Virus record (IMG/VR): IMGVR_UViG_3300028829_003112
Coordinates: 1 to 41,780 of that record
Strand: one strand, 5' to 3'
From: a virus
DNA length: 41,780 bases
The notes beneath the pieces are model-generated. The model ran no database searches. It saw only the letters and a program-made list of their open reading frames with translations, and was not told the DNA's origin. Position numbers and translations under genes: made by a program. Shown piece by piece: positions 5,701-41,780 of the stretch (position 1 is the stretch's first letter; the number at the start of each line of letters is the position of its first letter).

Positions 5701-6729
5701 ATGGCAGATAACACAGCCGCACGGTTAGGCCAGATCAATCAATCTGGTGATACCGATGCAGTCTATTTGCGCACGTTTGGCGGCGAAGTCATTACGGCTT
5801 TCGATGTCGCCAACGTCATGCTCCCACGCACCTTCCAGAAGAAGGGCACCGGTAAGTCCGTACAGTTCCCCCGATTGGGCACTGCCTCGGCAGCTTACCA
5901 CACCGTAGGCACTGAGCTTACTGGTAACTCGTACAACGCTGCTGAACTGTTGGTCTCCCCTGACCCGCAGCTCGTGAGCAATTACTTCCTCGATAACTAC
6001 GATGAGGTCATCACTCACTTTGAAGAGCGTCAACCCATTGCTTACGCGATGGCTCAAGAACTGTCTACTATCTGTGACAAGCACGTTATCCACGAAGGCA
6101 TCGCAGGCTCGCGCCTGACTGCTGTTGGTTCCGAGCTACCCACAGGTACTAGCGTCAACGGTAACCTCACGTTCAACGCCAGCAACTCCCTGTTGCTCAC
6201 GACTGAACAGAGCGGTACCGGTGCTTCCACCACTGCTGCGAAAGCTCAGGCTTGGCTCGATGCTCTTCAGAAGTGCGCTCAGCGCATGGACGAACTCAAC
6301 GTTCCCAAGATGGGTCGCTTCGTGGTTGTCCGTCCTCGTGAAGTCTACCCCCTCATTGTTGCAGCTCAGACCTCGGGTCTCCAGCTCATCAACAAGGACA
6401 TTGGCGGCGTAGGCTCCATCTCGGAAGGCACCATTGGCAACGTCCTCGGGTTCGATATCATCAGCTCGAACAACTTGCCGTTGACCGACCTCAGTGCTGA
6501 CACTGGCGTGTACACGTACCACAAAGCCGACTACAGCGCGACCGTTGGTCTCGTTGGTGTCGATCGCTCTATCGCGGTTGCTAACTGGCGCGGTCTCACG
6601 ACCTCCGCTGATTACATCCCCGACAAGCTCGGTACTCTTCTGATCGCGCGTTACATCAAAGGTATTAAGTACCTTCGTCCTGAGGCTCTCATCGAGCTGA
6701 AGCTGGCGACTGGTACTGTTACTGCCTAA
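5701..6729 (+). CDS. Major capsid protein, T7 gp10-like
   Basis: This 342-aa protein matches T7 gp10A in length (345 aa) and composition and would build the icosahedral head with the HK97 fold. Visible features include the N-terminal AVYLRTFGGEVITAFDVANV, which corresponds to the conserved T7-group segment LALKVFGGEVLTAF, the P-domain region around KKGTGKSVQFPRLG, and the C-terminal LLIARYIKGIKYLRPEALIEL. Codon use is rich in frequently used codons compared with neighbours, as expected for the most expressed protein. The ribosome-binding site is weak (GTGAGAAAC). A strong terminator follows 17 bases after the stop. There is no sign of a gp10B-type frameshift extension, because no long open frame continues past the stop. 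Confidence 0.96.
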   Translation: MADNTAARLGQINQSGDTDAVYLRTFGGEVITAFDVANVMLPRTFQKKGTGKSVQFPRLGTASAAYHTVGTELTGNSYNAAELLVSPDPQLVSNYFLDNYDEVITHFEERQPIAYAMAQELSTICDKHVIHEGIAGSRLTAVGSELPTGTSVNGNLTFNASNSLLLTTEQSGTGASTTAAKAQAWLDALQKCAQRMDELNVPKMGRFVVVRPREVYPLIVAAQTSGLQLINKDIGGVGSISEGTIGNVLGFDIISSNNLPLTDLSADTGVYTYHKADYSATVGLVGVDRSIAVANWRGLTTSADYIPDKLGTLLIARYIKGIKYLRPEALIELKLATGTVTA

Positions 6730-6802: not shown

Positions 6803-6806
6803 TGTT

Positions 6807-6880
6807 TGCGAAGTGATAGCAGCTGGTAGCTAGCAGGGCTCATAACCCTGAAGTCGGTGGTTCGAGTCCACCCTCCGCAA
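6807..6880 (+). tRNA. tRNA with CAU anticodon, initiator (fMet)-like
   Basis: The cloverleaf reads acceptor TGCGAAG (6807-6813) with CTCCGCA (6873-6879, one A-C mismatch), D stem TAGC/GCTA, anticodon stem CAGGG/CCCTG around loop CTCATAA, and T arm GGTGG-TTCGAGT-CCACC. The anticodon is CAU. Three consecutive G-C pairs at the bottom of the anticodon stem and an A11-U24 pair in the D stem are hallmarks of bacterial initiator tRNA, and the central region is close to that of E. coli tRNA-fMet. Unlike standard initiators, position 1 is U opposite A72 and can pair. The linker before the D stem has three bases in place of two. CCA is not encoded. It lies between two terminators behind the capsid gene. 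Elongator Met or Ile2 identity is the alternative. Confidence 0.85.
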
Positions 6881-6912
6881 CCCCCCTCCCCCTTTCCCTA
6901 AGTCCCCCGACT

Positions 6913-32429: not shown

Positions 32430-32754
32430 CGAGCTGGCTGCACCGGATGGTTATGCGGGGCATGGTGCCAAAGAACAATTTGCGATGTGCCAATCAATTG
32501 GCTGGCGACAAGCATTCCCTCCAGAAGAATGGACTCGATCCTTTATTCTCCCATGCAGACATTGTGGTTACACAGGCAAAAAGATCTTTATGATGGTTGA
32601 CCCCAATCGCACAGGAATACTTTGCATGTGCAAATACTGCGGCACTGAGAATGGCCCAAGGGCGCGCATTGGGTTCCTTCTCAACGAGATAAACGGGAAC
32701 GAGGAACGGGATCTTGCTCGATTCCATAACAACCGGATATCAGAACAGGAGTAA
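32419..32754 (+). CDS. Zinc-ribbon protein of distinct codon use
   Basis: The 111-aa product starts at ATG 32419, eight bases after GGAGG. It contains CRHCGYTGKKIFMM and, about 20 residues later, CMCKYCGTENGP, giving a four-cysteine zinc ribbon, with a helical C-terminal tail (NGNEERDLARFHNNRISEQE). Codon usage (many A/T third positions, few of the CCT/GAC-type codons seen elsewhere) differs from neighbours and suggests recent acquisition. It lies directly before the integrase gene. A DNA-binding or recombination-directionality role is conceivable, but the sequence does not identify one. Confidence 0.68.
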   Translation: MSDSELAAPDGYAGHGAKEQFAMCQSIGWRQAFPPEEWTRSFILPCRHCGYTGKKIFMMVDPNRTGILCMCKYCGTENGPRARIGFLLNEINGNEERDLARFHNNRISEQE

Positions 32755-32761
32755 CCCCCAC

Positions 32762-33796
32762 ATGAAAACCAAGAAACCCCCACTCTCAGTGTACCTGCGC
32801 GGGTCCACATACTGGGGATCTTTCACTATCAACGGCACCAAAACACAGGTGTCCCTGAAAACAACGGACAAACGCACGGCCCAGCGGACCCTAGCGGCCC
32901 TAAAGGACAAAGCGCTCGCTGAGGCTCTCCTAGGGGTTCCTAATGAACCTAAGAGTACCTCTGAGGCCCCTAAGATGACCCTGGCCCAAGCACGAGACCG
33001 TATGTACTCCGAGGTGTGGTCCTCGAACCGCACAGGTCTCAAGTCTAAGCGAAACTTCGAGTGCGTGATGTACAATGCGTTCACGCCAGACACACTCATC
33101 GCGGACATCACGAGCGCTAAGATGGTTACGGCTCGACAAGTCCTCACTACGGACACTCGAGGTCCTAGCACAGTGAACAGGTTGTTCGCTGCGTTCAAGA
33201 CTGTGCTTAATAGGGCACACAAGGTCTGGGAGGTAATAGACAAAGTGCCTCGTATCGAGATGTCTCGGGAACCCGAAGGTCGCCAACGGTTCTTTAGCGC
33301 TGAGGAGGAGCGAGACCTGCTAAGGCACCTAAACGACCACGATGTCCACGCAGCGCTTCTGTGCGCGGTAATGATCGACACAGGGCTCCGGGTCTCCGAG
33401 GCCCTTGGGATAGGCCTAGGGACCTCTGTGGACCTGGACGCTCGCACTGTGACTGTGTCTGCACGGACTGCGAAGTCCAAGAAGTCTCGGACTATCCCTA
33501 TGACCCAGCGAGTGTTCGCGATACTCAGCCAAGACCCTGAGCTAGGGTTGCGGTTGTACGAGTCGAAACTTCGAGGAGCGTGGAAAGGCGCAAGGGACGC
33601 TATGGGCTTAGGGGATGACCTTGAGTTCGTGCCTCACGCACTGAGACACACGTTCTGCTCGCGCTTGGTGCAACGGAACGTGAACCTAGCGGTCGTGCAG
33701 AAGCTCGCAGGGCACGCGGACATTAGTACTACGATGCGGTACGTGCATTTACAGGATGAGGACTTAAGGATGGCTATAAAGGAGCTTGAGCTATAA
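32762..33796 (+). CDS. int: Tyrosine-family integrase
   Basis: A 344-aa site-specific recombinase starts at ATG 32762, nine bases after AGGAG; upstream in-frame starts lie inside the preceding gene. It has an N-terminal arm-binding region (SVYLRGSTYWGSFTINGTKT), a core-binding helical domain (about residues 75-165), and a complete catalytic set: R210 in TGLRVSEALG, H292 and R295 in HALRHTF, H318 in LAGHADISTT and nucleophile Y327 in MRYVHL. All six positions expected for activity (including a lysine in AKSKKSRTIPM) are present. No tRNA-like attachment site lies next to the gene; the only tRNA-end-like sequence is at 6995. The next gene starts on its stop codon. Confidence 0.95.
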   Translation: MKTKKPPLSVYLRGSTYWGSFTINGTKTQVSLKTTDKRTAQRTLAALKDKALAEALLGVPNEPKSTSEAPKMTLAQARDRMYSEVWSSNRTGLKSKRNFECVMYNAFTPDTLIADITSAKMVTARQVLTTDTRGPSTVNRLFAAFKTVLNRAHKVWEVIDKVPRIEMSREPEGRQRFFSAEEERDLLRHLNDHDVHAALLCAVMIDTGLRVSEALGIGLGTSVDLDARTVTVSARTAKSKKSRTIPMTQRVFAILSQDPELGLRLYESKLRGAWKGARDAMGLGDDLEFVPHALRHTFCSRLVQRNVNLAVVQKLAGHADISTTMRYVHLQDEDLRMAIKELEL

Positions 33797-37728: not shown

Positions 37729-38322
37729 ATGATTACACCAATTGGCACCGCCCTGTGGGCACACCTCGATGAGATTAAAGTCTCTGATTACAACGCTGAC
37801 AAGTACGAGATCTCCTTGGTCCTTAACGAACAGGACGCCGCGACGTTACGCGGACAAATGGAGCCGAGTCTCGAGGAAGCGTTCAAGACCCTTGCAAGCA
37901 TGGGTAAAGAAGGTGGCGACATCTCCAAGATTCGCGCCAAGGTACACCAGTACGGACGCCCGCACCTGGACAAGGACGGACAAGACTCTGGGGCTGTACG
38001 GTTCACGTTCAAGACCAAGATCCAGCCTACGTTGATCGACGCAGGTCGCAACCCTATCCCGATCTCCACTAAGATCGGTAACGGCTCTCAGATCCGTCTG
38101 AAGCTCGGCACAGGCAAACGTCCTTGGGGACCCACTGGCGGCAAGTACGGCGCTAGCTTCTATCCGAACATCGTTCAGATCACTAAGTTGGTTGAAGGGT
38201 TCGGAGACACCTCAGAGTTCGATGATGTCGAAGGAGGGTTCGAGTTCACGCCAGGGGCTGGGGAGTTCGCGGACGCACCTGCTGCCTCTGAGTCCCCCAG
38301 CAACGGTACTGGGGACTACTAA
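37729..38322 (+). CDS. Single-stranded DNA-binding protein, T7 gp2.5-like
   Basis: The 197-aa product matches the T7 gp2.5 group in place and plan: a basic beta-rich OB-fold core (KYEISLVLNEQDAATLRGQM, FTFKTKIQPTLIDAGRNPIP, GNGSQIRLKLGTGKRPW) and a disordered acidic C-terminal tail (from about residue 160) that ends in an aromatic residue, DY (T7: DEDF). In T7 that tail contacts DNA polymerase and helicase. It starts at ATG 37729 with AAGGAACC upstream. Its stop TAA overlaps the presumed ATC start of the endonuclease/primase frame. Confidence 0.92.
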   Translation: MITPIGTALWAHLDEIKVSDYNADKYEISLVLNEQDAATLRGQMEPSLEEAFKTLASMGKEGGDISKIRAKVHQYGRPHLDKDGQDSGAVRFTFKTKIQPTLIDAGRNPIPISTKIGNGSQIRLKLGTGKRPWGPTGGKYGASFYPNIVQITKLVEGFGDTSEFDDVEGGFEFTPGAGEFADAPAASESPSNGTGDY

Positions 38323-40319
38323 TCCGCAGATACCACACCTACTCCGCCTCACGCCCTACCGGTCGCTATCGGTCAGGGTTTGAGGCGGAGATCGCAGCAG
38401 AACTAGATGTTGCGGGGATCAAGTACGAGTACGAGACTCGCAAGATAAAGTACGAGATTCCAGCCAAGAGCGCTACGTACACCCCAGACTTTATACTTCC
38501 TAACGGTATCATCGTGGAAGCTAAGGGTCGCTGGGACGTAGCGGATCGACGCAAACACAAGCTCATCCAGGAGCAGCAACCGGACCTAGACATTCGGTTC
38601 GTGTTTCAAAGGGCTAACTCAAAGATCCGAAAGGGGTCCAAGACTAGCTATGCAAGGTACGCTGAGAAGCTAGGGATACCTTGGGCTCAAGGACGGATAC
38701 CTAAGGAGTGGCTGCACTGTACGTCCTCTGACGGGTATCACGAGTACTCTGACGGACACGGGTATTGCTTCTCGTGTGAAGCGTACGACCACGGGGACAA
38801 GGACAACGGAGAACCCAGCGACTCTCTAGGCACCCTCCGTGTCAACCCCAGCGCACCGCTACGTCACCGAGGCTCGTACCAGCGCTTACTCAAACGCAGG
38901 CTTGATGAAACCACGTGCAAGAAGTTCGAGTACAAGATCACCGAGGATGGACTCCACGCCTCTCCGTACTACCGAGACGGAGTCCTCGTGGCAGTACACT
39001 ACCGTAACGCTTCCAAAAGTTTCTGGTGGGACGGCGACTCGAGTAACGTCGAGTTGTTCGGACAACACCTGTGGCCGAGTACTGGGCGCAACGTCATTGT
39101 CACGGAAGGGGAGCTGGATTGTCTCTCGTACGCCCAGGCGCAACGGCTTAAGTGGCCTGTGGTCTCGGTACCTAGCGGAGCACAAAGTGCCCTCAAAGCA
39201 GTAAAGCGGAACCTTGAGTGGCTCAGCGGGTACACCGAGATCGTCATTGCGTTCGACGCAGACGAGCCTGGACGCAAAGCTGCTGAGGAAGTCGCAGCTA
39301 TCCTCGAGCCTGGAAAGGCCAAGATAGTCTCGTGGCCTACAGGCATGAAAGATGCGTCCGATGTCCTCACTAAAGGCGGAGGCGAGGACCAACTCCGCAA
39401 GCTCATGTGGGACGCCCCTGTGTGGCGACCTGACGGCATCGTGGGTGGCGAGGACCTTTGGGGTCACGTCGAAGAGTTCTGGGCTCGCAAGCCCTCTGAG
39501 GAGACTACACCGTGGCCTGGACTCACTAAGCTCACGTTCGGTCTAAGACCTAAGGAGGTGTGGACTTGGACCGCTGGCACAGGAGTAGGGAAATCCACTG
39601 CTGTACACGAGGTTATGTTCCATAACTTGAACGAGAACCCTGAGGCCAAATGGGGCGTTGTGGCCCTTGAGGAATCCACAGGCCAAAGTGTCATTCGTAC
39701 ACTAAGCATGGCACACAACAGGCTCCTTCACCTGGATCGAGACGGCATGGACATCAACGATGTACGCGCTGCGTTCGACAAGTACGTAAAGGACCGAGTG
39801 GTTTTCTACGACCACTGGGGCGCTACGGACTCAGGGGACCTGCTAGGCAAAGTGCGGTACATGGCTGCTGCCCTAGGTGTCACGTACGTCCTGTTCGACC
39901 ACGTGTCCATCGCTGTGACGGACGCCGAGGATGAGCGCCGAGAGATCGACTCCCTGATGACCAAGCTCCGCACGATCTGCGAGAACACTGGGGTCGGTGT
40001 GCATTGCGTGTGTCACCTGAAGCGAGTGAACAGCCAGAGCGGAAAAGGCCACGAGGACGGACAACAAGTGAGACTAGGACACCTTCGAGGTTCTGGGTCT
40101 ATTGCCCAGATCTCGGACACGGTCTTGGCACTCGAGCGGGACCTACAAGATGGCTTGGACTTCACCAAGGTCCGAGTCCTCAAGTGTAGGTTCACCGGAA
40201 AGACTGGGTTGGCCACGAGGCTCCAGTACAACGAAGACACAGGGAGGTTAACGGACGCTGGGCTTGAAGATGAGCTAGCGGGGTTCGGAGATCTTCCTCC
40301 AAAAAGTGAGGACTATTGA
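38322..40319 (+). CDS. Endonuclease I fused to primase/helicase (T7 gp3-gp4 fusion), non-ATG start
   Basis: One open frame of 665 codons joins two T7 genes. Residues 1-130 are endonuclease I, the Holliday-junction resolvase, with all four catalytic residues: E21 in YRSGFEAEI, D56 in YTPDFILPNG, E66 and K68 in VEAKG (T7: E20, D55, E65, K67). It runs from IPKEWL straight into the primase zinc domain (HCTSSDGYHEYSDGHGYCFSC), TOPRIM TEGELDC and FDADEPGRKA, and the helicase with Walker A GTGVGKST at residues 419-426 and a C-terminal acidic tail ending SEDY. The frame is open from 38292 and has no ATG, GTG or TTG before 38514, which is inside the endonuclease. ATC 38322, overlapping the SSB stop and six bases after TGGGGA, is the best start candidate. 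The first zinc-ligand CxxC has only one cysteine. Confidence 0.88.
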   Translation: MRRYHTYSASRPTGRYRSGFEAEIAAELDVAGIKYEYETRKIKYEIPAKSATYTPDFILPNGIIVEAKGRWDVADRRKHKLIQEQQPDLDIRFVFQRANSKIRKGSKTSYARYAEKLGIPWAQGRIPKEWLHCTSSDGYHEYSDGHGYCFSCEAYDHGDKDNGEPSDSLGTLRVNPSAPLRHRGSYQRLLKRRLDETTCKKFEYKITEDGLHASPYYRDGVLVAVHYRNASKSFWWDGDSSNVELFGQHLWPSTGRNVIVTEGELDCLSYAQAQRLKWPVVSVPSGAQSALKAVKRNLEWLSGYTEIVIAFDADEPGRKAAEEVAAILEPGKAKIVSWPTGMKDASDVLTKGGGEDQLRKLMWDAPVWRPDGIVGGEDLWGHVEEFWARKPSEETTPWPGLTKLTFGLRPKEVWTWTAGTGVGKSTAVHEVMFHNLNENPEAKWGVVALEESTGQSVIRTLSMAHNRLLHLDRDGMDINDVRAAFDKYVKDRVVFYDHWGATDSGDLLGKVRYMAAALGVTYVLFDHVSIAVTDAEDERREIDSLMTKLRTICENTGVGVHCVCHLKRVNSQSGKGHEDGQQVRLGHLRGSGSIAQISDTVLALERDLQDGLDFTKVRVLKCRFTGKTGLATRLQYNEDTGRLTDAGLEDELAGFGDLPPKSEDY

Positions 40320-41780
40320 AAACGTACATCCTCGACATCGAGGGTAACGACCTCCTCCGTAACGTCACAACGATCCATTGCGCAGTAGCTACGAACGTAG
40401 CGGACCCAACGGATATCCTTGTGGCTCAACCGGGGGAGGTCGAGTACCTCATCGAGTACCTTATAGTCACTGAAGCAACAGTAGTCGGCCACAACATGAT
40501 CGGCTACGATGCCCCAGCGATCCTTAAGGTTCTCGGACTAGAGATAGATCGGTCCCAAATAAGAGACACGCTACTTATAGCTCGTCTGGTCCACCCTGAC
40601 ATAGGGCGGCGAGACGCAGAAATAGCGAAGATCAGACACGAACGAAACCAAACAGCCCTAATGCCTACACGGCTCCACGGGTCCCACTCCCTCGAAGCCT
40701 GGGGGTACCGCTTAGGGATCCACAAGACCGAGTACGATGGCGGCTGGGACACGTACTCAGACACGATGCTCGCGTATTGTGTGGACGACACACTGAGTAC
40801 CCTTGCACTGTGGAACCACGTGATGTCCAAGGAGCCTAGCGCTGAGAGTCTAAGGCTAGAGCACGAGGTCGCTTGGATCATCGAGGCTCAAACGAACCAC
40901 GGGGTTCTCTTTGATGTACCTGCTGCCGAGACTCTACTGGACACGTTACGTGCCCGCCGTTGGGAACTGGACGAGCAACTAGCTCTAGCGTTCCCTACTG
41001 AGCAGTACGTTCACAAGCGGTTTACACCTAAGGTGAACAACAAGACTCGCGGGTACGTGAAAGGCGTTGAGACTGTCGTGTACAAACAACGGGAGTTCAA
41101 CCCAGCGTCTCGAGACCAGATCGCTGCGCGGCTAGCCGCTAAGTACGGGTGGGTCCCTAAGGCCCAAACGGACACGGGGAAGCCTAAGGTAGACGAGACG
41201 GTCTTAGCGGCCCTTGTGTACCCTGAGGCCGAGCTGTTGGCTGAGCGGATGCTCATAGGCAAACGCCTAGGGCAACTGGCTGAAGGTCGCCAAGCGTGGC
41301 TCAAGTGTGTTGATGACGAGACCTCTCGGATTCACGGACGCCTTAACACGAACGGGGCAGTAACAGGGCGTATGACGCACTACAGCCCTAACATGTCCCA
41401 GGTGCCTGCGGTGAGATCCAAGTACGGAACTCAGATGCGAGCGCTGTTCACGGTGCCTAAGGGCTACAAGATCGTAGGGTGTGATGCTTCAGGCCTCGAG
41501 CTGCGGATGCTCGCACACTACTTAACAATACACGACGGAGGCGCTTATGCTGCCGAGGTACTTGAAGGTGACGTTCATAGTCACAATCAACGCGCTGCTG
41601 GACTCCCTACTCGGGATGCTGCAAAAACATTCATCTATGCGTTCCTGTACGGCGCAGGAGATGCGAAGATTGGGTCGATCGTTGGAGCGGGAGCTAAGGA
41701 GGGACGTGCTCTCAAGCTCCGCTTTCTTAAAGAACTCCCAGCTCTACGAGCGCTCCGCGACGGAGTATCTGAGGCCGCTG
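40316..41780 (+). CDS. T7-type DNA polymerase, N-terminal part (continues at position 1)
   Basis: The gene starts at TTG 40316, overlapping the primase/helicase stop (TTGA), and crosses the contig joint to end at 476, giving 598 aa (T7 gp5: 704). Visible motifs are Exo I YILDIEGNDLL (D7, E9), Exo II VGHNMIGYDAP, Exo III YCVDDT, polymerase motif A DASGLELRMLAHY (D390), and motif B RDAAKTFIYAFLYG (R433, K437, Y441). Tyrosine at the T7 Y526 position predicts low discrimination against dideoxynucleotides. The region where T7 carries the 76-aa thioredoxin-binding insertion (between the AFPTEQ and FNPASRD segments) is only about 35 aa long here, so the processivity clamp is largely missing. No thioredoxin gene was found in the window. 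Confidence 0.95.
   Translation, partial: MKTYILDIEGNDLLRNVTTIHCAVATNVADPTDILVAQPGEVEYLIEYLIVTEATVVGHNMIGYDAPAILKVLGLEIDRSQIRDTLLIARLVHPDIGRRDAEIAKIRHERNQTALMPTRLHGSHSLEAWGYRLGIHKTEYDGGWDTYSDTMLAYCVDDTLSTLALWNHVMSKEPSAESLRLEHEVAWIIEAQTNHGVLFDVPAAETLLDTLRARRWELDEQLALAFPTEQYVHKRFTPKVNNKTRGYVKGVETVVYKQREFNPASRDQIAARLAAKYGWVPKAQTDTGKPKVDETVLAALVYPEAELLAERMLIGKRLGQLAEGRQAWLKCVDDETSRIHGRLNTNGAVTGRMTHYSPNMSQVPAVRSKYGTQMRALFTVPKGYKIVGCDASGLELRMLAHYLTIHDGGAYAAEVLEGDVHSHNQRAAGLPTRDAAKTFIYAFLYGAGDAKIGSIVGAGAKEGRALKLRFLKELPALRALRDGVSEAA
41637..41780. repeat. Contig terminal repeat, right copy
   Basis: Identical to positions 1-144. Merging the two copies gives an unbroken polymerase frame and a circular map of about 41,636 bp. 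Confidence 0.93.

Follow-up and report, generated by a model that had tools for sequence, protein, structure and literature searches.

Genome and locus

The window, meaning the whole 41,780-bp stretch of DNA analysed here, is an entire virus record with an exact 144-nt terminal repeat, so that the contig ends overlap, and its DNA polymerase frame runs on over the junction of last and first base. The genome is complete and T7-like. PHROG matches revealed a gene set of Autographiviridae type, with a single-subunit RNA polymerase (RNAP), a gp2.5-type single-stranded DNA-binding protein (SSB), a T7-type portal, capsid, tail and terminase. The replication locus contains the following features:

37729–38322, plus strand: gp2.5-like SSB gene with an ordinary ATG start (PHROG 112, E 9e-22); its stop overlaps ATC 38322
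38322–40319, plus strand: fused ORF of endonuclease I and primase-helicase, 665 codons plus stop
38322–38714, plus strand: endonuclease I domain, residues 1–131 (PF05367), with catalytic E21, E36, D56, E66 and K68
39096–39368, plus strand: primase Toprim domain, residues 259–349 (PF13155, E 7e-14)
39519–40238, plus strand: DnaB_C / T7 helicase domain, residues 400–639, Walker A GTGVGKST (PF03796, E 4e-13)
40316–41780, plus strand: DNA polymerase gene, with a TTG start overlapping the TGA of the fused ORF and running over the contig ends (frame analysis, PHROG search)

Endonuclease I and primase-helicase share one reading frame

An earlier note on this DNA had described the resolvase and the primase-helicase as one continuous protein. 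Translation of the window confirmed a single frame from 38322 to 40319, without an internal stop, encoding a product of 74.7 kDa, close to the ~74 kDa predicted there. The Pfam family PF05367 (Phage_endo_I) matched the fused ORF from residue 10 to residues 131–135 (E about 2e-47 to 2e-48), with a score of 164 bits against a curated cut-off of 29.1, as expected for a phage endonuclease I core. The PD-(D/E)xK active site is complete: the earlier note had counted four catalytic residues, and all five of the T7 type were found, with T7 E20, E35, D55, E65 and K67 corresponding to E21, E36, D56, E66 and K68. The T7 gene 3 endonuclease I (PDB 1M0D/1FZR/2PFJ; PF05367) aligns over its whole core up to residue 131 and occupies the same place in the order SSB – nuclease – primase. 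Unlike T7 gene 3, however, the window nuclease lacks a stop and a C-terminal tail of its own, has ATC, not ATG, as its apparent start and runs into the primase.

The remainder of the ORF, residues 133–665, is a T7 gp4-type primase-helicase (structure match to 6n7i, E 2e-89), with the PHROG 239 primase/helicase profile covering residues 122–647 (E 3e-160). Like T7 gene 4 (PDB 6N7I, 5IKN, 1NUI), it has an SDGHxxCxxC zinc motif, a Toprim core, a DnaB-like helicase with a Walker A motif and an acidic C-terminal tail with an aromatic end (PPKSEDY; EDY in the primase of L324, the closest relative found). It differs from T7 gene 4 in that the start region and the first zinc cysteine (C17 in T7) are missing and a resolvase forms the N-terminus. 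In addition, no ATG, GTG or TTG occurs from the joint to residue 223, and no equivalent of the start of the short T7 gp4B was seen.

In comparison with solved structures, the alignment to T7 endonuclease I stops and the alignment to T7 gp4 begins at residue 132. Chance read-through between neighbouring genes was ruled out, since there is no linker and the homologies of the two sides meet within one residue. The locus is thus a fusion of a resolvase ORF with a primase-helicase ORF.

The joint lacks the first zinc cysteine

The joint reads ...IPKEWLHCTSSDGY... in the fused ORF, exactly as previously reported. The features around it are:

38702–38708, plus strand: TAAGGAG, resembling a Shine-Dalgarno (SD) sequence, made by Pro-Lys-Glu codons (9 copies in the window, 5.2 expected)
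38708–38710, plus strand: GTG one base ahead of the Trp codon, opening only 7 codons; the primase start position in 93 of 132 close relatives
38709–38720, plus strand: joint Trp130-Leu-His-Cys133, from the last conserved nuclease residue to the second zinc cysteine of gp4, with the first cysteine missing
38718–38777, plus strand: remaining zinc-binding domain with Cys133, Cys149 and Cys152, motif SDGHGYCFSC (alignment)
38719–38829, plus strand: +1 frame, open as far as TAG 38827–38829; the frame of the primase-overlapping nuclease tail in the L165–L201 group

WLHC replaces the CxxC that opens the zinc domain, and the nuclease Trp130 stands at the position of the first zinc cysteine. The window primase therefore has three of the four cysteines of the N-terminal zinc site, a loss that the earlier note had missed. 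CxxC was present in 298 of 308 primases, and the exceptions that were inspected had a cysteine nearby, the window excepted. A separate variation was seen in the primase of locus L085 (1490–3181), which has CxC in place of CxxC at the first zinc pair; this part of the zinc site is therefore not fixed in the primase family.

The earlier note had also stated that the resolvase runs into the primase zinc domain without an internal ATG, GTG or TTG. Two in-frame GTG codons lie within the nuclease, at 38514 and 38601, but the statement holds for 38604–38987, which leaves the primase portion without a standard start codon of its own. An ordinary primase N-terminus, with its own start and first cysteine, was found in none of the three frames at the joint. 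This rules out a single-base sequencing error. Nor would simply overlooking an indel or a stop at 38700–38720, the stretch on which the earlier note had let its reading depend, account for the joint.

A larger error would be the absence from the contig of some 26–41 nt with the primase start and the first cysteine, in a phage whose genes normally overlap. Such an assembly or consensus error would account for every anomaly of the joint by one lost stretch, and no more than one contig shows the fusion. Yet losing tens of bases in unique sequence is not usual for short-read assembly, a repeat search found only short, imperfect repeats around the joint, and restoring one base gives back no primase N-terminus. 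The other anomaly of this ORF, its ATC start, was moreover found again in an independent contig (see below). We consider an error of this kind distinctly unlikely.

The strongest rival to a single product is independent initiation at the joint: the ORF would be continuous, but the primase-helicase would be made mainly as a separate protein from an internal non-standard start such as CTG 38712, downstream of TAAGGAG. The position is suggestive, because 93 of the 132 close relatives begin the primase exactly there, one base before the Trp codon, and a separate start for the helicase would make physiological sense given the weak ATC of the nuclease. TAAGGAG, however, arises from the Pro-Lys-Glu codons, and chance alone predicts about five copies in each genome. 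A similar string, GAGGAG, occupies this place in L324 too, where the primase start is about 600 nt distant. Only 3 nt separate TAAGGAG from CTG, which is itself a poor start, and a primase begun anywhere at the joint would still miss the first cysteine. A conserved SD sequence for an internal primase start was not supported. We regard initiation at the joint as unlikely, if deserving of serious weight.

It is very improbable that translation begins instead at GTG 38708 and shifts by +1 into the primase frame at CTC-TGA-C (38726–38732). This GTG coincides with the ancestral start, and the 7 codons that it opens run up to CTC TGA C, which we take to resemble the RF2 frameshift site. Nevertheless, no SD-like element stands at RF2 spacing, the second zinc cysteine would be lost from the product as well, and conservation of the arrangement was not seen.

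Fused and separate genes among relatives

We compared 298 loci with both genes, the window included, drawn from eight IMG/VR scans, two GTDB genome scans and INPHARED. The fusion was present at one of these 298 loci, that of the window, and endonuclease I and gp4 were separate genes in all 297 others, many of which are closely akin to one another and do not amount to independent trials. With a 103-aa query spanning the joint, none of the 40 best INPHARED records, including all 30 with a coverage of at least 80%, matched in one piece, and the exact-spacing pattern WxxC...SSD...SDGH had no matches in IMG/VR. The fusion is thus not one already known from other phages in these sets, and no report of a resolvase/primase-helicase fusion was found in the set of open-access papers searched. 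A terminase scan and a GTDB scan with the P0001 pattern yielded no relatives; near-identical records may be left out of the scanned sets.

Of the 132 other close pairs, 93 have their primase start one base ahead of the nuclease Trp codon and in another frame, the ATG being formed by the preceding base and the TG of the invariant Trp codon (A|TGG) in the nuclease IPxxW motif (L005, L008, L010, L165–L201 and others). As in the window, the nuclease adjoins the primase in the L165–L201 group and in phages of the L005/L008/L010 type, and the start position precedes the Trp codon by one base. In contrast to the window, their genes overlap by 13–127 nt in different frames (124–127 nt in the L165–L201 group), and their primases have an ATG and CxxC. 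The window departs from this out-of-frame overlap: its primase shares the nuclease frame, and its Trp codon lies 9 nt from the second zinc cysteine, compared with at least 35 nt in the 132 other close pairs.

L324 (IMGVR_UViG_3300000117_005309) is 49% identical to the window in RNAP, 69% in the nuclease and 53% in the primase. It has the same ATC nuclease start in the context TAATCCG, but its nuclease and primase are separate, with an ORF of about 200 aa between them, and its primase keeps CxxC. This intervening ORF (L324:7020–7628) has an HPPCTYL motif and appears methyltransferase-like by eye, with no Pfam match.

The nuclease probably starts at ATC

Candidate starts of the nuclease in the window are:

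38322–38324, plus strand: ATC, the sole near-cognate start, overlapping the SSB stop TAA 38320–38322 (TAATC); same ATC in L324
38514–38516, plus strand: in-frame GTG within the nuclease, without a visible purine-rich SD sequence; the probable gene-finder start
38601–38603, plus strand: second in-frame GTG within the nuclease (frame scan)

From the in-frame stop upstream to the nuclease core there is no ATG, GTG or TTG. The only near-cognate codon is ATC 38322, whose A is also the final base of the SSB stop TAA. In L324, ATC (about 6632–6634) is likewise the only possible start, again within TAATCCG; the ORF upstream of it is a 31-aa reading frame, not an SSB gene. This non-canonical start, common to the window and its closest relative, had escaped the earlier note. 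The same ATC in two independent contigs makes a sequencing error there unlikely and supports AUC reinitiation after UAA. The ATC start of the window nuclease is therefore probably real; its conservation is better supported than the fusion and perhaps the more general point.

Three of the 340 nuclease ORFs whose 5' end could be read lacked an ATG, GTG or TTG start: the window, L324 and L303. In L303, the apparent start is CTG in a CTGA overlap. The DNA polymerase of the window starts at TTG 40316–40318 in a TTGA overlap with the stop of the fused ORF, which places weak starts on consecutive replication genes. AUU, CUG and AUC are among annotated prokaryotic starts, with a variable, low incidence (PMC9845219). 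The ATC shared by the window and L324 would show near-cognate initiation occurring naturally where a stop and a start overlap as TAATC; both nucleases would come out truncated from a gene finder limited to ATG, GTG and TTG.

Origin and possible function of the fusion

The two genes were probably fused naturally in a single phage lineage; the parts are known, and the fusion is unique in this sample. The distance of 9 nt compared with at least 35 nt, together with the still recognisable ancestral start site (GTG 38708), means that one out-of-frame deletion would explain the fusion, the lost start and the lost cysteine. Such a deletion, small and of a length not divisible by three (26–41 nt when compared with relatives), would have joined the two genes, removing the primase start region, the first zinc cysteine and the nuclease stop and leaving both genes in one frame. 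Ribosomes ending the SSB gene would then reinitiate at AUC 38322 in the TAATC overlap and read on to 40319. The product of about 75 kDa would comprise an N-terminal resolvase, a zinc domain with three of four cysteines, a Toprim primase and a ring helicase.

The nuclease may be attached to the helicase ring on its flexible side, that of the zinc domain, and junction cutting would then move with the replisome; a hexamer could carry up to three nuclease dimers. In T7, a flexible linker connects the zinc domain with the primase core, and the domain is able to act in trans (PMC10557236), which makes an N-terminal cargo sterically plausible. From the sequence we infer a deletion event, use of the ATC, a single product and a tethered function, and we hold this combined reading, with termination-reinitiation at the ATC, to be somewhat better than an even prospect. 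Of the earlier interpretation, the ORF fusion itself stands, the contig being complete with overlapping ends and no other relative examined having it; the single tethered protein is kept here as a prediction.

Several observations weigh against this explanation. The fusion is found in one genome and in no close relative, and the nearest, L324, has another ORF between the two genes. The main doubt is physiological. AUC is a weak bacterial start, and an AUC mutant of Bacillus subtilis rny had much lower expression (PMC10303841); synthesis of the replicative helicase would thus hinge on an inefficient codon.

Judging by T7 gp4, the loss of one of the four zinc cysteines should impair sequence-specific priming. 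The deletion may be real but recent and damaging, in which case the genome would represent a variant that is defective or in the minority, or else a phage dependent on its host for priming. The lost cysteine, the absence of another fused relative and the isolated position of the window among the 308 primases, the only one without a cysteine at or near the first position where exceptions were inspected, point in this direction. All other motifs are intact, however, and the zinc domain (55% identity to L324) is no more diverged than the RPD (50%) or the helicase (57%). Most T7 template-contact positions (D31, H33, aromatics; PMC10557236) are kept in the window primase, which, together with the intact tail (SEDY), suggests a working enzyme. 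We consider a damaging deletion improbable.

If the fusion is functional, junction resolution would be physically coupled to the fork, and the protein would test the tolerance of the T7 zinc site for the loss of a ligand. In its most specific form, this would be a Holliday-junction resolvase tethered to the replisome. A single protein, translated from an AUC that a small lineage has retained, would unwind DNA, prime with an altered, three-cysteine zinc site and cleave branched DNA at the fork. This full picture we put forward tentatively and hold to be doubtful.

Other features of the genome

A tyrosine integrase gene is located at 32714–33796, upstream of the RNA polymerase gene, from which the phage is probably a temperate T7-like phage. 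A tRNA-Met(CAT) gene at 6806–6883 has three G:C pairs as in the anticodon stem of an initiator and is nearer to Escherichia coli tRNA-fMet than to elongator tRNA-Met; its 3' end reads CCC, not CCA. It lies after the capsid gene, distant from the integrase.
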